Assembly (NCBI RefSeq): GCF_031851795.1
Contig: NZ_CP134696.1
Coordinates: forward strand, 5,022,001 to 5,086,000
Direction: 5' to 3'
DNA length: 64,000 nucleotides
DNA from: Pontibacter sp. G13
GTDB lineage: Bacteria > Bacteroidota > Bacteroidia > J057
Each line of letters starts with the position of its first letter. The stretch's first letter is position 1. The notes under the pieces are model-generated. The model made no database searches. It was not told where the DNA came from and saw nothing but the letters and a program-made list of their open reading frames with translations. Made by a program: the position numbers and the translations under genes. Positions 15,135 through 26,853 of this stretch are shown piece after piece.

Positions 15135-17324
15135 TTAACGAGCGTTGTTGCGTGGGCCTCTGCGGCCACCGCCACCACTGCGACCTCGATCGCGATCTTC
15201 GCGCTCTTCGTAGCCTTCAGGCTTAGGAAGGAGTGCTTTGTGGCTCAAGCGGAATTTACCTGATTTGGGGTCAACGCCGATCAATTTGATTTTGACAGCA
15301 TCTCCCACCTTAAAGATACCTTCCATGCTTTTGAGGCGCTCGTAGGAAATCTCTGAGATGTGCAACAGACCTTCCTTGCCGGGGAGGAATTCTACGAATG
15401 CACCATAGTCGGTGATGGTTTTCACCTTGGCATCGTAAACGTCTCCAACGGTAGGAACTTGGATCAGCTTGCGAATCTGCTGTACAGCAGCGGTGATCGC
15501 TTCTGCATTGTCGGCGGAGATCGTGGCAGTACCTACGTTTCCTTCGCCTTCTTCCAAGTTGATGGTCGTGTTGGTCGTTTTCTGGATCTCTTGGATGATC
15601 TTACCACCTGGTCCGATTACCATACCAAAGGATTCGTGAGGAATCTCCATGGAGAAGAATCGAGGTGCGTAAGGGGAAAGGTCTTTGCGAGGCTCTGGGA
15701 GCGTCTTAAGCATTTCCTCCAAGATGTGCATACGGCCAGCTTTGGACTGAGCGAGTGCTTTTTCCAGAATTTCGTAAGACAGCCCACGGATTTTGATATC
15801 CATCTGGCAGGCAGTCAAACCTTCAGAAGTACCCGTTACTTTGAAGTCCATATCGCCGAGGAAGTCTTCATCGCCCAAGATGTCGGACAATACCGCGAAT
15901 CCATCTTCGGTGGTGATCAATCCCATTGCGATACCGGAAACAGGACGGGTCATTGGGATACCGGCATCCATCAGCGCGAGTGTTCCACCACAAACAGAAG
16001 CCATGGAAGAAGATCCATTGGATTCCAAGATGCTGGATACTACACGGAGGGTATAATCGGTATCATCAGGGATCATGACCTTGAGGGCACGCTCAGCCAA
16101 GTTGCCGTGACCGACTTCCCGACGAGCAGGACCGCGGTTAGGCTTTACTTCACCAGTAGAGAAACCTGGGAAGACGTACTGAAGCATGAAGCGCTTGGAG
16201 CCTTTGAAGGTAGCGGTATCGATGGTTTGCTCATCGAATTTGGTACCCAAAGTAACCGTACAAAGCGCTTGGGTTTCCCCACGTGTGAAGACAGAAGATC
16301 CGTGGGAGCGAGGGAGGTAACCCACTCGGCTCCAGATCGGACGAACTTCTTCGAGGCCACGTCCATCCAGTCGGAGAGATTCTTTGACGACCGTGTCGCG
16401 AACAATCTTCTTCTGGATTTTCTTGAAGTATTTGCCAAATCGAGCACCGAAGTACTCATCCTCAGCATATTTTTCTTTGAGGGCTTCTACGGCTTTTTCT
16501 TTGACCGCGGAAATCTTCTCGGAGCGCAACTCCTTAGACATTGCACCATGTGCAACTTCGGAGATGGTGTCTTTGATGATTTCGTGGATCTCGTTGTAGA
16601 GCTCCTCGTTGAATTCGAGCGTGTCGTAGGTACGCTTTTCCTTGCCTGCCTGTGCGCGGAGGTCTTCCTGCATGGCGTTGAGGGCGCGGATGGTATCGTG
16701 AGCGACCTTCAATGCTTCGAGCATGGTCTCCTCACTGACTTCCTTCATTTCACCCTCTACCATGTTGATGGAATCGCTGGTAGCTGCCACCATCAGGTCG
16801 AGGTCGCAATCTGCCATATCAGCGAAGGAAGGGTTGACAATGAATTCGCCATCCTTGCGTGCTACCCGAACTTCGGATACAGGCTCGTGAAAAGGAATGT
16901 CAGACACCAAAAGGGCTGCGGAAGCGGCTACACAGGCCAATGCATCCGGTTGCTCTTTGGAGTCAGATGAAATCATTTGGACCATCACTTGCGTGTCCCC
17001 ATGATAATCATCTGGGAAAAGCGGCCGGATCGCCCGGTCGATCAACCGGGAAGTCAGGATCTCAGATTCTCCCATACGACCGTCTCTCTTGAAGAAACCG
17101 CCTGGGAAACGTCCGGCTGCTGCGAACTTCTCCATGTAATCCACGGACAAGGGCAAAAAGTCCACTTCCAGATTGATCTCCTTCCGTGCGACTACGGTGG
17201 CCAGCAACATGGTTTCTCCACACGTCAGGACCACAGCGCCGTCCGCTTGTTTGGCCAATGCCCCTGTATCAATGGATATTTCACGCCCGTCAGGGAGTGT
17301 AGTTGAAGCTCTGAATTCTTTCAT
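15135..17324 (-). CDS. pnp: Polyribonucleotide nucleotidyltransferase (PNPase)
   Basis: The 729-residue phosphorolytic 3'-5' exoribonuclease has two RNase PH domains (about 10-220 and 320-545) joined by a helical linker, a KH domain (MVIGPGGKIIQEIQ near 565) and an S1 domain (VGDVYDAKVKTITDYGAFVEF to about 700), then a Gly/Arg-rich tail. The second RNase PH domain carries the FPGFSTGE and GGTLALMDAG motifs. It follows rpsO by 64 bp, the conserved rpsO-pnp order in bacteria. Confidence 0.98.
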   Translation of the reverse strand: MKEFRASTTLPDGREISIDTGALAKQADGAVVLTCGETMLLATVVARKEINLEVDFLPLSVDYMEKFAAAGRFPGGFFKRDGRMGESEILTSRLIDRAIRPLFPDDYHGDTQVMVQMISSDSKEQPDALACVAASAALLVSDIPFHEPVSEVRVARKDGEFIVNPSFADMADCDLDLMVAATSDSINMVEGEMKEVSEETMLEALKVAHDTIRALNAMQEDLRAQAGKEKRTYDTLEFNEELYNEIHEIIKDTISEVAHGAMSKELRSEKISAVKEKAVEALKEKYAEDEYFGARFGKYFKKIQKKIVRDTVVKESLRLDGRGLEEVRPIWSRVGYLPRSHGSSVFTRGETQALCTVTLGTKFDEQTIDTATFKGSKRFMLQYVFPGFSTGEVKPNRGPARREVGHGNLAERALKVMIPDDTDYTLRVVSSILESNGSSSMASVCGGTLALMDAGIPMTRPVSGIAMGLITTEDGFAVLSDILGDEDFLGDMDFKVTGTSEGLTACQMDIKIRGLSYEILEKALAQSKAGRMHILEEMLKTLPEPRKDLSPYAPRFFSMEIPHESFGMVIGPGGKIIQEIQKTTNTTINLEEGEGNVGTATISADNAEAITAAVQQIRKLIQVPTVGDVYDAKVKTITDYGAFVEFLPGKEGLLHISEISYERLKSMEGIFKVGDAVKIKLIGVDPKSGKFRLSHKALLPKPEGYEEREDRDRGRSGGGGRRGPRNNAR

Positions 17325-17765: not shown

Positions 17766-18914
17766 TTACTTTTTCTCCATGCTTTCGGGCTCATTGTCAG
17801 TCTGGTAGCGGAAGTCTGAACGGATGTGTAAATCCCGTTGAGGGAATGGAATTTCGATGTCGCTCCGGCGAAATTCTCCATCGATCATAAACCGCAGATC
17901 ACTCAAGATATCTTCGAATGCCGAAGAACGATTGATCCAAAATATCAACTCAAAATCCAAGGAGGAATTCCCAAAGTCCTTAAATCGAACACGCGGAGGT
18001 GGATTTTTGAGAATCAGCCCATGTTCCGCCGCGCAAGCCTCCATCACACTCCGGACCTTCTGCACATCCGAGCCGTACGCAACGCCCACATTGAGACGTA
18101 ATCGGGTCTCCTTGTCGTTGAAGTTCCAGTTGACCACCGGGTCCATCGTCAGTTTGGAATTGGGCACCACCACGGACACGGAATCTTGGGTCTCGATGAT
18201 GGACGAACGAAGGCGTATTTCCTTGACTCTGCCCTGTAGCTGCAATTGCTTGAGAATGACCATGTCGCCCACTTTGACTGTGCCGTCGAATAGAATCACG
18301 ACACCCGCGGCAAAATCAGAAAAGGTCTGCTGCAAGGCCAAGCCCACCCCCACGAAAAGACCCGCGGAAGAAGCTACCAGTACATCTAGCTTCACGTGAA
18401 GATTGGCCAAGGCGATGATCACGGCCAACACATACACGAGATATTGAAAGATCTGGTAAATGGCCATGCTGCGTCCTGCCTCGATGGGGATCTTCTGACT
18501 TTCGCCCCATCTCACAAATGCACGTTTGGCATAAAGCAGGAAGAATCTGGCAGCGACCAGAATCAAGATGCCCAGCATGATGTTGGACAGGCCGATACTG
18601 GTATTGTCTCCTAAATTGATGGAGAGATTGAGGATTTTCTCGCCGTCATCACCGAGTGAAAGTAAGGTCAGGTAGAAGCCCAGCAGGAAAATAGTCCATT
18701 GGACCACCTTATTATATAAGGACACGGAATTGCCCGATAGCTTGAAGCCGAGGACAAACTTTCCCGCTTCGGCCCTCTTTTGGACAAATCGATTAACGAC
18801 CACCACCGCTATCCATATCAGGATAATCAAGGCGATTTGCTGAACCGTGAATGTATGGTTTTCAAACAAGGCGATTTCCTGCTTGAGGAATGCAAATAGC
18901 TTGTCGAGGTTCAT
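17766..18914 (-). CDS. MscS-family mechanosensitive ion channel
   Basis: The 382-residue protein has four hydrophobic helices (about 22-42, 70-88, 110-130, 150-170) before the pore helix LVASSAGLFVGVGLALQQ, then the MscS beta domain with the FDGTVKVGDMVIL and VVVPNSK motifs and an alpha/beta C-terminal domain. It is an inner-membrane channel that relieves hypo-osmotic stress. It is co-directional with rpsO but 101 bp upstream, so it may be independent. Confidence 0.93.
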   Translation of the reverse strand: MNLDKLFAFLKQEIALFENHTFTVQQIALIILIWIAVVVVNRFVQKRAEAGKFVLGFKLSGNSVSLYNKVVQWTIFLLGFYLTLLSLGDDGEKILNLSINLGDNTSIGLSNIMLGILILVAARFFLLYAKRAFVRWGESQKIPIEAGRSMAIYQIFQYLVYVLAVIIALANLHVKLDVLVASSAGLFVGVGLALQQTFSDFAAGVVILFDGTVKVGDMVILKQLQLQGRVKEIRLRSSIIETQDSVSVVVPNSKLTMDPVVNWNFNDKETRLRLNVGVAYGSDVQKVRSVMEACAAEHGLILKNPPPRVRFKDFGNSSLDFELIFWINRSSAFEDILSDLRFMIDGEFRRSDIEIPFPQRDLHIRSDFRYQTDNEPESMEKK

Positions 18915-19008: not shown

Positions 19009-20517
19009 TCAATCTGAATTCGTGATGTCGGACAACTCTAGCCAAGTATTGAGGTCCGGCAATTCATTCGCAGCGAATTCTGGCAGAAAAGACTCCATCC
19101 TCAATTCCGTGAGATCCAGCTTGGAAGCCTTTCGGGGAGCGGTTCTCATTTCCACAAAAGACAGCTCGAAAACCCATTGAGGGAAAACCTGCATGATGGG
19201 CCCTTTTTTGCTGGTTTTGTGATTGTTGAGGTCCCGTTTCCAATCTGCCTCCGAAGCACCGGGCAAGTGTCCAGATGCAGTGCCAATGGCGACATATTTT
19301 TCGCCTTGTTTCATCCCAAACCCGTATTCAGGGAATTCGGCCTTGGGAATTTGACGGCTGTAAAGCAGAACTGCCTTGAGCCGAGATCGTTCAGGCTGCC
19401 AATGAATCATCTGGGGCGTATTGGTCCGCTGGTTGGGAATCAAGGTCCAAACAGGGCGATGTTTTGTTGGAGTTTTGGGCACCTGCAGCTTTGTCGGCAT
19501 TTCGGTCGAAGTAGGCCATTCAACCGAATCGAACAGCTTGATTCTTTCGATCCATTCGTCCGAAAGGGGCTGATGATCCCATTTCGCTATATCCAACAGG
19601 ATCAATTGGATGGATGCAGATTTGGAGGATTTTCGATCGCTTTCCAGCCATTTCTGCAAAGTCTCGGGACGCTCTGCCGGAGAATGAAGCCAGCCGAATA
19701 AGACTCCTGCATCCGGCAGCCCTTCCAATGGCCACTCAATATGCGGCAATTTGTGCCTGCATGGGGTTTCCTGCGGCATCCAAATTTCCCAATCATTCCC
19801 CTGCCAAGAAATCTGAACCAGCATCCCTGCGGGAAGGGAAAGGCAGACGGATTGACCCAAAAGTTCCGGCGTCTCTTCTCCCGGTATTGTCACCTCCTCC
19901 GGAAATGCGATCGGTGCAAGGGCGTGATGGGATGGGAGAGCAGGATTGGGATTGCTCAGGAAGAATGCCTCAAACGGATCGAATCCTTGAACGAGTAACC
20001 GATGCAACTCAGACTCGGGCATGTTGCGGTCTTGTGCCAATGCCTTGACGACATGCTTGGTGCGGACCGGAGATCGATAGGCACCCGTCAACCATTTGTT
20101 GATCATGATGCGGGTGTCCGATTCGCAGCGATCCCACATCTTCCGAGCAAATGCTTCAATTTCCTCTGGATTTCGCTTGTCCAACTCCTGATATTCTTCG
20201 AAGAATTCCTTGAGGGACGGATATTGCGGGGTGTCAGGCTCCGGAATCAATCTCCCCACCGCTTCTCCTGCATCGCCCGATTCCTCGATACAGCGATTGA
20301 CGAGCCAATCGGGAAATTGGGTGTGCGCTGCTGCCCACGGGATGAGCTGATCTTTCTTGATGAGCTTTTTGGGTTTCCACTGATTGAGCAGCGCGATGAA
20401 AAAGGGTTCGTCTGCTTCGGAGATTTGGGCGAGGCCATCTCGGATGTATTGAATGCGAAGGGACGCACTGTCCGTTTCCGCGAGTTTCAGGCAAGTTTCT
20501 ACAAATAGATCCAGCAT
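19009..20517 (-). CDS. Ligase-like protein of the ATP-dependent DNA ligase/exonuclease locus, catalytic residues lost
   Basis: This 502-residue protein lies 6 bp downstream of the ligase-associated exonuclease gene, where the partner ATP-dependent ligase normally sits. Its N-terminal half follows that ligase family (helical domain, then NKWLTGAYRSPVRTKHVVKALAQ and FDPFEAFF). In the adenylation domain the nucleotide-binding motifs are degenerate. Where the lysine motif (KWDG) is expected the sequence reads LVQISWQGNDWEIW; the DGE motif becomes GVLFGW; the EGLMLK motif is missing; and KWK near the domain end becomes IHWQPER. The C-terminal OB-like part is recognisable (LKAVLLYSRQ, WVFELSFVEM). 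It is probably inactive as a ligase but may retain DNA or partner binding. The reading frame is intact and long, so it is not obviously a decaying pseudogene. Confidence 0.75.
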   Translation of the reverse strand: MLDLFVETCLKLAETDSASLRIQYIRDGLAQISEADEPFFIALLNQWKPKKLIKKDQLIPWAAAHTQFPDWLVNRCIEESGDAGEAVGRLIPEPDTPQYPSLKEFFEEYQELDKRNPEEIEAFARKMWDRCESDTRIMINKWLTGAYRSPVRTKHVVKALAQDRNMPESELHRLLVQGFDPFEAFFLSNPNPALPSHHALAPIAFPEEVTIPGEETPELLGQSVCLSLPAGMLVQISWQGNDWEIWMPQETPCRHKLPHIEWPLEGLPDAGVLFGWLHSPAERPETLQKWLESDRKSSKSASIQLILLDIAKWDHQPLSDEWIERIKLFDSVEWPTSTEMPTKLQVPKTPTKHRPVWTLIPNQRTNTPQMIHWQPERSRLKAVLLYSRQIPKAEFPEYGFGMKQGEKYVAIGTASGHLPGASEADWKRDLNNHKTSKKGPIMQVFPQWVFELSFVEMRTAPRKASKLDLTELRMESFLPEFAANELPDLNTWLELSDITNSD

Positions 20518-20523
20518 CTCAGC

Positions 20524-21525
20524 TCAATATTCGGTGGAAAAGGAGGCGATACCCTTCGACCGCAACCATCGGGTGAAGTCTGGCGCATAGCCGTGTTCGG
20601 TGTAGACGACCTCGGCGCCAGATTCCTGCACCGCCCAATTGAGGCCCGGCCAGTCCGCATGATCCGAGATCACAAATCCCCGATCCGCGCCAAATCTGCT
20701 TTTCCGGCGACCATGCGCCATCCAGCCAGAAGCCATTCCCACTTGACACGGGCGAAGGATCTGCATCAACGGGCCTTTCAGTACTTGAGGCGGGGCGATG
20801 ACGAGGGCGCTACGCAGATCCGATTGCTTGACTGAAGAATCGAGAAGCTTGGCGGATTTGAGCGGATAGCCCATCTCGCGGATGACTTGATTGGTGGATT
20901 CCACTTCCTCCCCGCAGTAAAGCGGGCCAATGGAAGCATCAGCCATGTGAAGGAGGCGTTGGGATTTGCCGAGGGAATATCCCAACAGAATCGAGGTGAT
21001 GCCATTCTCGGCATTTTCCCGCCACCAGTCGTTGAGTTCATTCGTCAGCAATTGAGGATCGCGCCATTGGAACATGGGCAATCCAAAGGTAGTCTCCGTG
21101 ATAAACACCCGGCATTTCACCGGCTCGAACGCTGGAATGAGCCCGTCATCCTGCACCTTGTAATCTCCGGAAACCACCCAGACATCGCCATCGCATTCGA
21201 CGCGAACCTGCGCACTCCCCGCCACATGACCTGCCGGATGAAAACTGAATGTCACGCCACGGATATTGACGGATTCGCCATAGGCCGCGCCTTGGGTCTG
21301 GATGTTGTGGCCGAGCCGATGCCGGAGAATCGGAATGGTATCGTGATGGGCAAAGTAGCCGCCAACACCCGGCGTCGCATGGTCCATGTGGGCATGGGTG
21401 ATGACCGCTCGCTGGACTTTGGCCGAAGGATCGATGTAGACATCGGCCTTGGGACAGTACCAACCAATCCGGGTTTGGACCAGTAGCGAATCTGGGGCTA
21501 GGTGAGGGGGAGAAATCTGGGACAA
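20524..21525 (-). CDS. Ligase-associated DNA exonuclease (metallo-beta-lactamase/beta-CASP-like)
   Basis: The 333-residue protein carries the metallo-beta-lactamase metal motif THAHMDH (motif 2), a downstream PAGHVAGSAQV histidine and SGDYK aspartate. These match the exonuclease that accompanies a Lhr-type helicase and an ATP-dependent ligase in bacterial DNA-repair clusters. It should degrade DNA with metal ions. The helicase and phosphoesterase of the usual four-gene locus are not in this window. It is the first gene of a pair with the degenerate ligase. Confidence 0.88.
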   Translation of the reverse strand: MSQISPPHLAPDSLLVQTRIGWYCPKADVYIDPSAKVQRAVITHAHMDHATPGVGGYFAHHDTIPILRHRLGHNIQTQGAAYGESVNIRGVTFSFHPAGHVAGSAQVRVECDGDVWVVSGDYKVQDDGLIPAFEPVKCRVFITETTFGLPMFQWRDPQLLTNELNDWWRENAENGITSILLGYSLGKSQRLLHMADASIGPLYCGEEVESTNQVIREMGYPLKSAKLLDSSVKQSDLRSALVIAPPQVLKGPLMQILRPCQVGMASGWMAHGRRKSRFGADRGFVISDHADWPGLNWAVQESGAEVVYTEHGYAPDFTRWLRSKGIASFSTEY

Positions 21526-21626: not shown

Positions 21627-22622
21627 ATGACCGAAGCAACAGATATCAAGGCGCTGAACGAACAAATTCAGGAAAAGAGCGCGTTCGTCGACCTGCTCAC
21701 ACGGGAAGTCAGAAAGGCCATCGTCGGCCAGCAATACATGGTGGAACGGCTGTTGCTCGGCTTGCTTTCCGGCGGCCATATCCTCCTTGAAGGGGTGCCC
21801 GGCCTCGCCAAGACCTTGGCCATCAAGACGCTGTCCAAGGCCCTGGACGGCCACTTCAGCCGGATTCAGTTTACGCCGGACTTGCTCCCCGCCGATGTAG
21901 TGGGTACCATGATCTACAACCCCAAGACCATGGAGTTTTCCGTGAAAAAGGGGCCGGTATTCGCCAACTTTGTCCTCGCGGATGAGATCAACCGTTCTCC
22001 CGCCAAGGTACAATCCGCCCTCTTGGAGGCGATGCAGGAGAAGCAGGTGACCATCGGGGAAAACACCTTCCATATCGAGCGTCCATTCCTCGTGCTTGCC
22101 ACGCAAAACCCGCTGGAACAGGAAGGAACCTACCCGCTGCCGGAAGCCCAGGTGGACCGTTTCATGCTGAAATGCGTGATCTCCTACCCGACGCTGGAAG
22201 ACGAGCGACTGATCATTCGCCAGAATGTCAATCCGCAGCCGACCACCATCAACCCGGTAGTGGGACTCGACACCATCATGGATGCCCGCAAGGCCGTGCA
22301 ATCCGTCTACATGGATGAAAAGATCGAGCAGTACATCCTCGACATCGTGTTCGCCACACGGAATCCCGAGAACTACAAACTCGCCAAGCTCAAGCCATTG
22401 ATCAGCTATGGAGGGTCTCCCCGTGCGTCCATCGCATTGGCACTGGCATCCAAAGCCTACGCCTTCCTGAAGCGTCGCGGCTACGTGATCCCCGAGGATG
22501 TGCGCGCCATCTGCGAAGATGTGATGCGCCACCGCGTCGGCATCACCTACGAAGCCGAAGCCGAAAACATCACCTCCGAAATGATCATCGCCGATATCCT
22601 CGACCATGTCGAGGTACCCTAG
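21627..22622 (+). CDS. MoxR family AAA+ ATPase
   Basis: The 331-residue ATPase has Walker A in GGHILLEGVPGLAKTLAIK (about 48-66), Walker B FVLADEINRSPAK, sensor 1 in VLATQNPLEQEGTYPLPEAQ and the C-terminal lid (SPRASIALALASKAYA). MoxR proteins act as chaperones for assembling metal enzymes or VWA-domain membrane complexes. The usual DUF58 and VWA partners are absent: the gene ends at a terminator after 30 bp. Confidence 0.95.
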   Translation: MTEATDIKALNEQIQEKSAFVDLLTREVRKAIVGQQYMVERLLLGLLSGGHILLEGVPGLAKTLAIKTLSKALDGHFSRIQFTPDLLPADVVGTMIYNPKTMEFSVKKGPVFANFVLADEINRSPAKVQSALLEAMQEKQVTIGENTFHIERPFLVLATQNPLEQEGTYPLPEAQVDRFMLKCVISYPTLEDERLIIRQNVNPQPTTINPVVGLDTIMDARKAVQSVYMDEKIEQYILDIVFATRNPENYKLAKLKPLISYGGSPRASIALALASKAYAFLKRRGYVIPEDVRAICEDVMRHRVGITYEAEAENITSEMIIADILDHVEVP

Positions 22623-22690: not shown

Positions 22691-22726
22691 GTGTGGGGGG
22701 GCATGTCAATGTCAGGGATTAGTCAT

Positions 22727-22986
22727 GTCAGGGATTGAAATCCCTGCTTGTGATGTGTCGTCCCTACAGGACTTGGATGGTCTTGTTCTTTTCGATTTTT
22801 TATCAGGTCATTTCGGCTTGCCATCCGCTGAGGCTTGTGGGTTGGGGATTGTCAATGTCAGGGATTGAAATCCCTGCTTGTGATGTGTCGTCCCTACAGG
22901 ACTTGGATGGTCTTTTTCTCTTCGATTTTTTATCGCGTCATTCCAGCCTGCCATCCGCCGAGGCTTGCGTGTCGGGGGCAGAGGTG
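22727..22986 (+). repeat. Two tandem 130-bp repeats with a REP-like head, left side of the nSTAND/LRR cassette
   Basis: Copies start at 22727 and 22857. Each opens with a ~50-bp head containing the palindrome cagggatt-ga-aatccctg and the small stem GTCC-CTACA-GGAC. The same head occurs at 30186 and 30348, on the far side of the three-gene cassette, in the same orientation. A short partial copy (gtcagggatt) precedes both groups. The gap 22623-23013 holds only these repeats and the MoxR terminator. Confidence 0.8.
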
Positions 22987-23013: not shown

Positions 23014-26000
23014 CTATCGCTCTGCCCCCTCTACCTCTGGCCCCAAGTACGGCCCTTCCCCCCTCAAATAGGCGATGATCCTCTCCATCTCCGGGCGATG
23101 CTCGTCTGGGATGATGCCGAAGCGCTCGAAAATAAGAAAATCCATCAAGGACTCTTTTCTTGTGCCAGCTTTTTTCGATTTTCGATATTCCTGCCACGCG
23201 CCGTGATAGTTCCCTTGGATGAGAAATACGGGTGCTTTCAACCAATAAGTCAAGGGTGAAAGCACCGAATTTGGTTCCAAATATGAAATGATGGAATCTG
23301 CAACTTCTATTTTTCCAGATAGCAAGCTTTGGTAGCCAGCCATTATAAGGTAGTTTGATTTTTCTACGGAATCGATCAATTGTAATGCCTCATCTAGATA
23401 GTGGTTCGACATGATCGCTGCGAATTTTTGAAGGGAATCTTTGTTTGATGTATTTATCAAGAGCTTTTCCATAGAATCAATGGATGCCAATAAGGATTCA
23501 GTATTGCTAAACATGGAATAAAATGGGCCTTTTGTGAGGTAGATTGAGTTTAACTTAACAGCGTCAAAATGTGAATTATCAGCATACAAATTACCTGAGA
23601 TGTAAAGTGTATCAATTTTGCTGAAATTTTCGAGTATGCTAGAAAAATCCTTTATGGGATTACCCCATAGAAAAAGATTAGATAAATGACCTAGGTTGTT
23701 TAGCTCTTTTGGGATCGTGGGTAATTTATTCATGCTGAGATCCAAGCTAGAGAGTTGCGGCAAATTCCAAATTGATTCAGATAGTGAGGTCAGTTGATTA
23801 CCACTCAAGTCTAGCTTGGATAAGTTTGTTAACCTTCCAATCTCATCAAGTTGAGATCGGATATTGTTGCGAGCAAGAACGAGTTTAGTCAAATTCTGGA
23901 GATTCCCGATTTCTTTTGGTAAAGTGGTCAACCTATTTCCTCCTAGTTCTAGCTTACCAAGCCTCTGTAGGCTTCCAACCTCTGATGGAAGGAATTGAAG
24001 TCTGTTTCCGGATAAGTACAGTTCTTCCAGTTTGTGTAGATTTCCTATTTCAAATGGAATCGAATCAAGTAGGTTTCCCCATAGGTAAAGTGCTTTAAGT
24101 TCTTTGAGATCTCCGATTTGAGGGGAAATTGTTTGAAACCTATTTCCTCCCACGGAAAACATTTCAACTTTCTGTAAATCCCAAATGCTTGATGGTAGTT
24201 CTGATAAATTATTCCCTTGAACATATAATATTCTTAGGTTCTGGAGATTTCCGGTACTTGGGGGCAGTTGAATTAGGTGATTTCCCCCAAGGTAGAGCCC
24301 GGTGAGGTTTGTGAGGTTTCCGATCTCCGGGGGGAGGGTCCCGAGGCCGTTTCCTTCAAGGTCGAGCACTGTGAGGTTTTGTAGGTTTCCGATCTCATTG
24401 GGAAGTGTCCCTAGGCCGTTATTGCGAAGGTCGAGTTCAGAGAGGTTTTGGAGTTTCCAGATCTCCGGGGGGAGTGTCCCTATGCCGTTATTCCCAAGGA
24501 AAAGCGTTGTGAGGTTTTGTAGGTTTCCGATCTCGTTGGGAAGTGTCCCGAGGCCGTTATTGCGAAGGTCGAGTTCAGAGAGGTTTTGGAGTTTCCAGAT
24601 CTCCGGGGGGAGTGTCCCTATGCCGTTATTCCCAAGGAAAAGCGTTGTGAGGTTTTGTAGGTTTCCGATCTCGTTGGGAAGTGTCCCTATGCCGTTATTC
24701 CCAAGGAAAAGCGTTGTGAGGTTTTGTAGGTTTCCGATCTCATTGGGAAGTGTCCCGAGGCCGTTATCGGAAAGGTAGAGCCCGGTGAGTTTTGTGAGGT
24801 TTCCGATCTCCGGGGGGAGGGTCCCGAGGCCGTTTTCTTCAAGGTCGAGCACTGTGAGTTTTGTGAGGTTTCCGATCTCCGGGGGGAGGGTCCCGAGGCC
24901 GTTTCTGGAAAGGTCGAGCACTGTGAGGTTTGTGAGGTTTCCGATCTCTGGGGGGAGGGTCCCGAGGCCGTTATTGCGAAGGTCGAGTTCTGAGAGGTTT
25001 TGGAGTTTCCAGATCTCTGGGGGAAGTGTCCCTAGGCCGTTATTGCGAAGGTCGAGTTCTGAGAGGTTTTGGAGTTTCCAGATCTCCGGGGGGAGGGTCC
25101 CTATGCCGTTATTCCCAAGGAAAAGCGTTGTGAGGTTTTGTAGGTTTCCGATCTCTGGGGGGAGTGTCCCGAGGCCGTTATTGCGAAGGTCGAGTTCAGA
25201 GAGGTTTTGGAGTTTCCAGATCTCCGGGGGGAGGGTCCCTATGCCGTTATTCCCAAGGAAAAGCGTTGTGAGGTTTTGTAGGTTTCCGATCTCCGGGGGG
25301 AGGGTCCCGAGGCCGTTTCCTTCAAGGCCGAGCCCGGTGAGGTTTGTGAGGTTTCCGATCTCTGGGGGGAGTGTCCCTAGGCCGTTATTGCGAAGGCCGA
25401 GCCCGGTGAGTTTTGTGAGGTTTCCGATCTCCGGGGGGAGGGTCCCGAGGCCGTTTCCTTCAAGGTCGAGCACTGTGAGGTTCTGTAGGTTACCGATCTC
25501 CGGGGGGAGGGTCCCGAGGCCGTTTCCTTCAAGGTCGAGTTCTGAGAGGTTTTGGAGGTTTCCGATCTCTGGGGGGAGGGTCCCGAGGCCGTTTCCGGAA
25601 AGGTAGAGCGCGGTGAGTTTTGTGAGGTTTCCGATCTCCGGGGGGAGGGTCCCTAGGCCGTTATTGCGAAGGCCGAGCCCGGTGAGTTTTGTGAGGTTTC
25701 CGATCTCCGGGGGGAGGGTCCCGAGGCCGTTTCCGGAAAGGTAGAGCGCGGTGAGTTTTGTGAGGTTTCCGATCTCCGGGGGGAGGGTCCCTAGGCCGTT
25801 TCCTTCAAGGTCGAGCACTGTGAGGTTTTGGAGGTTACCGATCTCCGGGGGGAGGGTCCCTAGGCCGTTATTGCGAAGGCCGAGCACTGTGAGGTTTTGG
25901 AGGTTACCGATCTCTGGGGGGAGGGTCCCGAGGCCGTTATTGCGAAGGTCGAGTTCTGAGAGGTTTTGGAGGTTACCGATCTCTGGGGGGAGGGTCCCGA

Positions 26001-26853
26001 GGCCGTTTCCGGAAAGGTTGAGCGTCAATAGGCTGGTGAGACAACCCTTGCAAATAGAGAAGTTCGCCAGTTGATTCCTATTCAACAATAACACTTTCAA
26101 TTGATTCTGTGTGAAAATCGTATCTGGAAGCTCGGTAAGCCCTCGGTTTCGCAAGTCCAAGGCTGTTATATCCGGCCCCAAATCTGCTACCTCATACGCC
26201 ACACGATATTCAACCCCTTCGGTATCTATCAGATATTTGATCTGATTCCGTTCAACTTTCGCAAACCCATCTTCAAATTGTTCCGCTCGGTCATATTGGT
26301 AGGCAATTACCTGATCTCCCAGTTGGTTGATGAAGCCATATTTTTTTCTCCCCCAAACTTGTTTCAATGCCAACGCCAATTCCCCCTCATAAAAATAAAA
26401 TGCATCGATCAGCTTCTGATTCTGGGAGATGGTGGAGTCGCTTATGCGCTGAGCTGCTAGGAGTTCAGCGAGGGTACTATCTGACTTTTGCTGCTCTAGC
26501 TGTAGATCTGTCAAGGCTTGCTGCGTGAGTGTCTGCTGGGTCTCCAGTGCTTGAAGGGTGGCCTTTAGCTCGCGAGTCGTAGCTTGGGCCTGCCTGCGCT
26601 CCTCTTGGATGCCTTCGATACTCTGTTGGACCCCTGCATCAGCCGCTGATTGGTCGCTTTGGCAGATATCTGCCGCTACTTGGGCTGCTTGGTATTTGAT
26701 GAGGGCTTGGTCGTAGTTTTTCGCCTGAAAAAAGGCATCGGCTTGCTGGAGGTACTGATCATAGTCAGGACAGGGCTGTGCCAAGATCCTCAGTGGCATG
26801 ATCCAGGCAAGGATCAGCATACTCAAACGGGCAAGTGTCAGAAGGGTGGGCAT
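23014..26853 (-). CDS. Exported giant leucine-rich repeat protein with WG-like repeat and coiled coil
   Basis: The 1279-residue protein has a signal peptide (about 1-25), a TPR-like helical pair (28-60), a Gln-rich coiled coil (about 75-150), a WG-like repeat (GFINQLGDQVIAYQYDRAEQ, about 170-215), then about 35 leucine-rich repeats of 23 residues (about 228-1075) and a helical C-terminus. Roughly 25 repeats are near-identical: consensus LxxNGLGTLPPEIGNLxxL with variable LSGN/LRNN/LEGN/LGNN positions. The array should form one long solenoid outside the cytoplasm, typical of ligand or protein binding. It overlaps the nSTAND gene by 16 bp and is last in a three-gene unit, so the two are very likely translationally coupled. 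Frames on the opposite strand are reverse images of the repeat. Confidence 0.93.
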   Translation of the reverse strand: MPTLLTLARLSMLILAWIMPLRILAQPCPDYDQYLQQADAFFQAKNYDQALIKYQAAQVAADICQSDQSAADAGVQQSIEGIQEERRQAQATTRELKATLQALETQQTLTQQALTDLQLEQQKSDSTLAELLAAQRISDSTISQNQKLIDAFYFYEGELALALKQVWGRKKYGFINQLGDQVIAYQYDRAEQFEDGFAKVERNQIKYLIDTEGVEYRVAYEVADLGPDITALDLRNRGLTELPDTIFTQNQLKVLLLNRNQLANFSICKGCLTSLLTLNLSGNGLGTLPPEIGNLQNLSELDLRNNGLGTLPPEIGNLQNLTVLGLRNNGLGTLPPEIGNLQNLTVLDLEGNGLGTLPPEIGNLTKLTALYLSGNGLGTLPPEIGNLTKLTGLGLRNNGLGTLPPEIGNLTKLTALYLSGNGLGTLPPEIGNLQNLSELDLEGNGLGTLPPEIGNLQNLTVLDLEGNGLGTLPPEIGNLTKLTGLGLRNNGLGTLPPEIGNLTNLTGLGLEGNGLGTLPPEIGNLQNLTTLFLGNNGIGTLPPEIWKLQNLSELDLRNNGLGTLPPEIGNLQNLTTLFLGNNGIGTLPPEIWKLQNLSELDLRNNGLGTLPPEIWKLQNLSELDLRNNGLGTLPPEIGNLTNLTVLDLSRNGLGTLPPEIGNLTKLTVLDLEENGLGTLPPEIGNLTKLTGLYLSDNGLGTLPNEIGNLQNLTTLFLGNNGIGTLPNEIGNLQNLTTLFLGNNGIGTLPPEIWKLQNLSELDLRNNGLGTLPNEIGNLQNLTTLFLGNNGIGTLPPEIWKLQNLSELDLRNNGLGTLPNEIGNLQNLTVLDLEGNGLGTLPPEIGNLTNLTGLYLGGNHLIQLPPSTGNLQNLRILYVQGNNLSELPSSIWDLQKVEMFSVGGNRFQTISPQIGDLKELKALYLWGNLLDSIPFEIGNLHKLEELYLSGNRLQFLPSEVGSLQRLGKLELGGNRLTTLPKEIGNLQNLTKLVLARNNIRSQLDEIGRLTNLSKLDLSGNQLTSLSESIWNLPQLSSLDLSMNKLPTIPKELNNLGHLSNLFLWGNPIKDFSSILENFSKIDTLYISGNLYADNSHFDAVKLNSIYLTKGPFYSMFSNTESLLASIDSMEKLLINTSNKDSLQKFAAIMSNHYLDEALQLIDSVEKSNYLIMAGYQSLLSGKIEVADSIISYLEPNSVLSPLTYWLKAPVFLIQGNYHGAWQEYRKSKKAGTRKESLMDFLIFERFGIIPDEHRPEMERIIAYLRGEGPYLGPEVEGAER
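24300..26025 (-). repeat. Array of about 25 near-identical 69-bp LRR-coding modules
   Basis: Each 69-bp module codes one LRR and shares almost all silent sites with its neighbours. Modules fall into a few types that recur in mixed order, such as FLGNNGIGTLPPEIWKLQNL followed by DLRNNGLGTLP, which appears several times. Repeats on the 3' side of the gene (23.7-24.25 kb) are far more diverged. This pattern indicates recent amplification and recombination limited to the central array. Confidence 0.85.

Follow-up and report, generated by a model that had tools for sequence, protein, structure and literature searches.

A catalytically degenerate LigB-type DNA ligase homologue beside its exonuclease in Pontibacter sp. 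G13, and similar putative pseudo-ligases in one order of Bacteroidia

We analyzed a stretch of 64,000 nucleotides from Pontibacter sp. G13 (contig NZ_CP134696.1, positions 5,022,001 to 5,086,000 of the forward strand), referred to below as the window; coordinates are those of the window unless a contig is named. The gene order at the locus was UXS - PNP - MscS - LIG2 - EXO2 - MoxR. LIG2 (19009..20517, minus strand) encodes a 502 aa, catalytically degenerate homologue of the LigB-type ATP-dependent DNA ligases (TIGR04120/PRK09247), and its open reading frame covers exactly positions 19009-20517 with an ATG start. EXO2 (20524..21525, minus strand), a ligase-associated DNA exonuclease of the MBL/beta-CASP type (TIGR04122; 382 bits for a cut-off of 325), lies upstream, and LIG2 begins 6 bases past its stop codon. 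The neighbouring genes served as syntenic anchors: the ORF at 15135..17324 (minus strand), which we take to be polynucleotide phosphorylase (PNP; 75% identical in G007 and 71% in G005), an MscS-type channel (17766..18914, minus strand; 55% in G007) and, beside EXO2, the ORF at 21627..22622 (plus strand), presumably a MoxR-type AAA ATPase (84% in G003 and 78% in G005). The gene next to PNP is presumably UXS. A promoter scan returned no more than chance. Just past the MoxR gene, we observed a direct duplication of about 130 bases (22715-22967), and the nearby ORF 23014-26853, which encodes a 1279 aa protein, contained a 69-base unit (23 aa, resembling a leucine-rich repeat) in about 25 tandem copies between positions 24287 and 26024.

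The initial annotation had described LIG2 as the homologue of the ATP-dependent ligase of the exonuclease locus, and both the NCBIfam matches and the adjacency to EXO2 confirm it. The NF006701/PRK09247 model matched residues 5-269 (E 3e-25, 89 bits, cut-off 543), and TIGR04120 matched residues 9-188 (E 1e-18) with 67.4 bits by protein and 56.4 bits in the genome search, below its curated cut-off of 400. In Pfam, DNA_ligase_A_N alone was found (E 0.00087; 20 bits, under the cut-off of 24.6), with no match to DNA_ligase_A_M, to any other adenylyltransferase model or to an OB domain. The family match had been placed in the N-terminal domain, and this ligase domain (DNA_ligase_A_N) is indeed present, being covered by both NCBIfam matches and by a confident helical model. 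The likeness is nevertheless wider than described: the BLASTP alignment with LIG1, the intact ligase encoded elsewhere in the same genome, spans 536 columns (22.8% identity, E 4.5e-24), and residues 373-489, the C-terminal OB region, also align with ligases (for example that of G095, at E 9e-7). A chance match was ruled out by the BLASTP E value together with ligase folds found in the PDB at E 1e-20. A phmmer search of LIG2 against the PDB returned no ligase, and LIG2 used as a query found no relative among the genome contigs or plasmids searched.

All the adenylation motifs had been described as replaced, and this holds for three of them: motif III (DGE/DAE) reads FGW (within LFGWL), motif IV (EGLMxK) has no counterpart residue, and motif V (WWKWK) reads IHWQ. 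By contrast, SWQG, which had been taken as the equivalent of motif I, aligns with the next strand in the MAFFT alignment, where the motif I slot is a gap. The loss of motif I therefore looks like a deletion rather than a substitution. No KxDG was found anywhere along the LIG2 chain, so no intact catalytic lysine motif lies in another part of the protein. The reading frame is intact, as claimed: the 502 aa frame is open and aligns over the full length of LIG1, with no stop, frameshift or truncation that would make LIG2 a pseudogene. An assembly error or a broken gene was ruled out by this open frame and by four further full-length dead copies in other genomes.

The best preserved part of LIG2 was the N-terminal helical domain, known as the DNA-binding domain of ligases (aa 1-180; 19978..20517, minus strand), with 10 of 19 invariant positions kept and block pLDDT values of 91-96, dropping to 75-79 over aa 161-180. 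The remnant of the adenylyltransferase (NTase) domain (aa about 200-365; 19423..19920, minus strand), which holds the motif I gap and the altered motifs III and IV, was modelled with low confidence (block pLDDT 29-72) and could amount to hardly more than a linker. The putative OB domain (aa about 368-495; 19033..19416, minus strand) kept 12 of 40 invariant positions and was modelled as strands with fair to good confidence (block pLDDT 67-93). Overall, the AlphaFold2 model of LIG2, built with 15 sequences, reached a pLDDT of 74.6 and a pTM of 0.47. With the same 15 sequences, the dead ligase of another genome of the order, G007, reached a pLDDT of 88.8 and a pTM of 0.77, its NTase blocks lying mostly at 85-95; LIG2 is more remote than G007 from the other alignment rows, and remoteness alone lowers model confidence. 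Using Foldseek, the LIG2 model matched archaeal and human ATP-dependent ligases in the PDB, 3w1g among them, at E 1e-20 and weaker. Since the closest matches had TM-scores of about 0.4 to 0.55 with an rmsd of 9-19, the model does not reproduce the domain placement of a ligase.

We looked for an active paralogue elsewhere in the genome, and found it in LIG1 (C1:1560571-1562154), which has all motifs intact and scores 640.8 bits with TIGR04120; no other protein of this genome matches the ligase catalytic domain of Pfam. LIG1 belongs to a complete run of EXO1, LIG1, an Lhr-type helicase (1127.6 bits) and the phosphoesterase MPE (237.7 bits) at C1:1557492-1563207 (locus L078), that is, a full four-gene Exo-LigB-Lhr-MPE operon. 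The window holds the first two genes of this cluster in the same order, but differs from it by its dead ligase and by the absence of the helicase (TIGR04121) and MPE (TIGR04123), which were over their cut-offs in this genome at C1:1557492-1560541, beside LIG1 only. LIG1 and EXO1 are 67% and 72% identical to their counterparts in G084, a genome of another family, and LIG1 pairs with the G084 ligase in the ligase tree at 100/100 support. Since G084 was the closest among the genomes compared, the exo-LIG1-Lhr-MPE operon was probably acquired horizontally.

We then considered the same family in 22 genomes of the order and in 395 genomes sampled from the class. A LigB-type match was found in 10 of the 22 genomes. 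An active ligase was present in our genome (G000; LIG1) and in G004, G005, G006 and G009; a dead ligase was the only one in G002, G007, G015 and G018, while our genome has the dead LIG2 in addition to LIG1. The ligase of G003 is a fragment cut by the end of its contig: motif I would lie beyond the contig, motif III has been lost, and motifs IV and V could not be recognised. In the class sample, 104 of 395 genomes were over the TIGR04120 cut-off, and 103 of these ligases could be read through, the motifs being intact in 101 and damaged in those of G002 and G007; the remaining one, in G076, has stops and was seen as two open pieces only. For the comparison of motifs, we used 107 distinct ligases of 502 to 680 aa, corresponding to the class sample minus G315 and G076 and plus G005, G009, G015, G018 and LIG2. 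Motifs I, III, IV and V were kept in 102 of them, and the other five, all from the order of Pontibacter sp. G13, were damaged in all four. Every one of the 102 active ligases has the K of motif I, the R after DG(I/V/L), the R of motif Ia, the E of motif III, the E and K of motif IV and both K of motif V; two of them (L185 and L186) differ at the residue following the R of motif Ia. Each of the five dead ligases has lost the K of motif I, the E of motif III, the E of motif IV and the first K of motif V. Among the others, the R after DG and the K of motif IV persist in G007, G015 and G018, the R of motif Ia in G018, and the last K of motif V in G002, G007 and G015; LIG2 retains none of these residues. 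In the N-terminal domain, all five have lost G149. Of fifteen named loci also considered, two were those of G007 and G002; among the other 13, which belong to other organisms, the 12 that were aligned (L193 being left out) all keep KWDG.

None of the five full-length dead ligases contains an internal stop; the four besides LIG2, in which frameshifts would have pointed to decay, are not close relatives of it. Stop-broken ligases do occur in the class (G104:C15:26478-27991 and G076:C1:3276512-3278088), and both genomes keep a stop-free exonuclease over the cut-off. We found no second ATP-dependent ligase match in G002, G007, G015 or G018 (G002 is 100% complete and G018 only 56%), and G002 has the exonuclease, the helicase and the phosphoesterase with no ATP-dependent ligase found besides the dead one. 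G010, of the same genus as G002, has neither a ligase match nor an exonuclease over the cut-off.

The exonucleases accompanying the dead ligases appeared well conserved. EXO2, whose active-site residues are intact, keeps 46 of the 48 columns that are invariant in 22 reference exonucleases, in line with those of G007 and G002 (48/48 each), G018 (47/48) and G015 (46/48), and the G003 exonuclease fragment keeps 20 of 21. Ligase and exonuclease share the same 10 of 22 genomes of the order (as fragments in G003), the other 12 having neither over the cut-off. In the class sample (n=395), both were over the cut-off in 102 genomes, the ligase only in 2, the exonuclease only in 10 and neither in 281; exceptions include a cut exonuclease in G033, a split ligase in G247 and a broken ligase in G104. 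As 10 of 112 genomes have the exonuclease only (G247 and G104 included), the exonuclease dispenses with the ligase in some lineages. The dead ligase adjoins the exonuclease in the window, G007 and G015, and does not in G002 and G018. In G002 and G007, the helicase and MPE genes lie at sites apart from the ligase, as they do in G006 with its active ligase; in G003, G015 and G018, they were not found over the cut-off. We also noted a second exonuclease-like family (L072, L073, L074 and L075; about 200-290 bits to TIGR04122), which adjoins a P-loop gene of 195-208 aa in all four genomes looked at; we presume that this gene resembles dephospho-CoA kinase. The second exonuclease-like genes of G099, G060, G042 and G015 were considered as partners of other dead ligases and rejected, none of the four having an adjacent ligase.

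Synteny gave an indication of how the dead state arose. In G007, the order is UXS (72%) - PNP (75%) - MscS (55%) - another gene - dead ligase - exonuclease. In G005, the active ligase adjoins PNP and the exonuclease lies near MoxR on another contig, and in G003 the exonuclease adjoins MoxR. The same locus therefore holds a living ligase in G005 and a dead one in G007. An rpoB tree, obtained with a quick method and lacking G009, G011, G012 and G018, interleaves genomes that have dead and active ligases, and joins G007 to G005 (SH-aLRT 91). As these two paired genomes carry the living and the dead form at one locus, the gene order favours an inactivation in place. Ligase trees leaned towards a single dead group, a grouping made unsafe by long branches: a poorly supported branch (19/89) set all five dead ligases apart from the rest, and support rose to 92/96 without LIG2 and G018; with motif columns masked and G015 also removed, G002 and G007 grouped at 80/92 as long branches meeting, and in the motif-masked tree a placement of G007 inside the native active ligases was not rejected (p 0.198).

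We analyzed whether losses are concentrated on the catalytic site, using the 106 columns whose conservation in the 102 active ligases reached at least 95%, among which eight catalytic positions, chosen from ligase biochemistry, were set against the rest. Losses affected 7/8 catalytic versus 19/98 other invariant positions in G002 (p 0.00018), 6/8 versus 23/97 in G007 (p 0.0053) and 6/8 versus 31/98 in G015 (p 0.021); a Y to F change, also seen in 3 active ligases, accounts for one of the six catalytic losses in both G007 and G015. The result was borderline for LIG2 (8/8 versus 67/98, p 0.056, gaps counted as lost) and for the G003 fragment (5/5 versus 37/63, p 0.082), and in G018 (5/8 versus 60/95, p 0.67) a concentration was mostly absent. 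We extended the test to six variants, using nine or five positions as well and counting any residue seen in an active ligase as kept. The p-values ranged from 1.3e-5 to 0.012 for G002, 0.0053 to 0.033 for G007, 0.017 to 0.053 for G015, 0.013 to 0.17 for LIG2, 0.015 to 0.14 for G003 and 0.052 to 0.8 for G018. On these values, G002, G007 and G015 look like pseudoenzymes, in which the active site was removed from a chain otherwise kept, and LIG2, G018 and G003 appear eroded throughout. The statement that selection had kept LIG2 is thus credible from its relatives, in particular the losses in G002 and the confident model of G007, and less so from LIG2 itself, with its borderline value and an intact second system in the genome.

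The lost residues imply that the dead ligases would be unable to take up AMP or to seal nicks. Our leading explanation, to which we give about even credence, is that LIG2 is a pseudo-ligase, of a kind that has arisen repeatedly in nature, and that it is retained as a partner of the exonuclease without catalysing anything itself. Against this explanation stand the borderline or mostly absent catalytic enrichment in LIG2, the G003 fragment and G018, the loss of G149 from all five copies, the exonuclease-only genomes of the class, the lack of both genes in G010 and the unlinked dead ligases of G002 and G018. The main rival, which we regard as less likely, is relaxed decay: another ligase, here that of the LIG1 operon, would have made the gene dispensable, and the gene would drift until it breaks, its open frame reflecting either short time or translational coupling with EXO2. 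Decay would fit the probable import of the LIG1 operon as an intact second system, the absence of the module from G010 and the broken copies of G076 and G104, and since LIG2 is heavily eroded, with 67 of 98 non-catalytic invariants lost, it is a serious rival for LIG2 specifically. However, all five full-length frames are open although identity between the dead ligases and the native active ones is no more than 20-49% (and that between LIG2 and the other dead copies 18-22%). In simulations of drift without selection starting from LIG1, a mean of 16.4 stops had accumulated at 42% aa identity and of 21.5 stops at 22.8%, with a minimum of 10 stops in each set of 60 runs, compared to none in the five dead copies. 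This simulation is a rough guide, as it starts from LIG1, includes no indels and treats all divergence as neutral, though much of it may predate the catalytic loss. The G+C content by codon position in LIG2 (0.567, 0.410 and 0.571) differs little from the values for LIG1 and PNP. Decay is also at odds with the preferential loss of catalytic residues in G002, G007 and G015, and with the absence of a back-up ATP-dependent ligase match in G002 and G007. Redundancy with LIG1 as the whole story was likewise rejected for the group, as the genomes with a dead ligase only, G002, G007, G015 and the incomplete G018, lack a second match. The group of dead ligases is therefore more interesting than the single gene, and LIG2 itself could be on its way out.

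The initial annotation had proposed a DNA-binding or a scaffolding subunit. The net charge was -17 for LIG2, -14 for G002 and -22 for G007, compared to a lowest value of -12 among the 102 active ligases, and the OB domain had a charge of -1, -3 and -5, respectively, compared to 0 to +7 in the active ligases. G015 (-7) and G018 (+7) were not unusual, and part of the acidic shift is the loss of the catalytic K and R itself. The exonucleases of G002 (0) and G007 (+1) were not shifted, and EXO2 was mildly acidic (-5), other exonucleases ranging from -7 to +9. With LIG2, G002 and G007 more acidic than all the active ligases, overall and in the OB domain, DNA binding by LIG2 appears doubtful, and we prefer docking or scaffolding to DNA clamping. 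The acidic shift could also signal a new role that has nothing to do with the exonuclease, such as that of a regulator which binds proteins or mimics DNA, and this would agree with the unlinked dead ligases of G002 and G018. We consider it improbable, given the co-occurrence of ligase and exonuclease throughout the order, their adjacency in the window, G007 and G015, and the lack of a charge shift in G015 and G018. The idea that these proteins remain active nucleotidyltransferases, their catalytic residues having moved elsewhere, could draw on the persisting last K of motif V or K of motif IV in some copies and on the predicted fold of the G007 NTase domain, but is very improbable with four motifs damaged in all five ligases, no KxDG elsewhere in LIG2 and an NTase domain modelled there at low confidence.

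As a non-catalytic partner, the pseudo-ligase would act as a subunit docking the exonuclease, most likely through its preserved N-terminal domain, and sealing of the processed ends would fall to another ligase, either LigA, if present in Pontibacter sp. G13, or LIG1 in the same genome. Fusions of exonuclease and ligase in other bacteria, reported in an excerpt of PMC10140301, make a contact between the two proteins plausible. Artemis is an MBL/beta-CASP nuclease, like the EXO2 type. An excerpt of PMC3664939 describes the binding of an Artemis peptide by the DNA-binding domain of ligase IV; LIG2 has the same N-terminal ligase domain (with 3w1g among its fold matches), and an interaction with EXO2 would follow by analogy alone. 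Catalytically dead DNA ligase IV has been engineered as K273A in cultured cells and K466A in yeast, and these mutants support joining by another ligase, according to excerpts of PMC9638927 and PMC3694833. The LIG2 group would resemble these mutants, which can still support repair by another ligase, in being a ligase chain without catalysis, and differs in that the ligase IV mutants are laboratory products, whereas the present putative dead ligases are natural, bacterial and recurrent. More ambitiously, one order of Bacteroidia may have evolved, once or several times, a dedicated and folded pseudo-DNA-ligase that functions as the docking subunit for the LigB-associated exonuclease; it would be a natural bacterial parallel to what ligase IV does structurally, and another ligase would do the sealing. 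We put this forward tentatively, as a proposal with the chances rather against it.

With respect to known LigB-type ligases ('cisplatin damage response ATP-dependent DNA ligase'), LIG2 shares the probable three-domain order, the full-length alignment to LIG1 and the pairing with an exonuclease, and differs by its lost catalytic motifs and a score of 67 bits for a cut-off of 400. Ejaz and Shuman reportedly studied the Exo-LigB-Lhr-MPE repair cluster in 2018. The cluster is described in an excerpt of PMC10140301, where its role and the damage it targets were said in 2023 to be unknown. Among the matches listed in the open-access literature, none reports a bacterial DNA ligase that is catalytically dead by nature; in the excerpt concerned of PMC10211241, the term 'pseudoligases' refers to ubiquitin E2 variants and not to DNA ligases. 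The dead ligases also show that automatic names may mislead, since those of G002, G007 and G015 exceed the TIGR04120 cut-off for active ligases (400 bits) despite four damaged adenylation motifs each. Overall, roles of ligases other than sealing are known from engineered ligase IV mutants, and natural dead ligases that accompany the exonuclease of the pathway would allow asking what ligases do besides ligating, and would also offer a handle on the LigB cluster.
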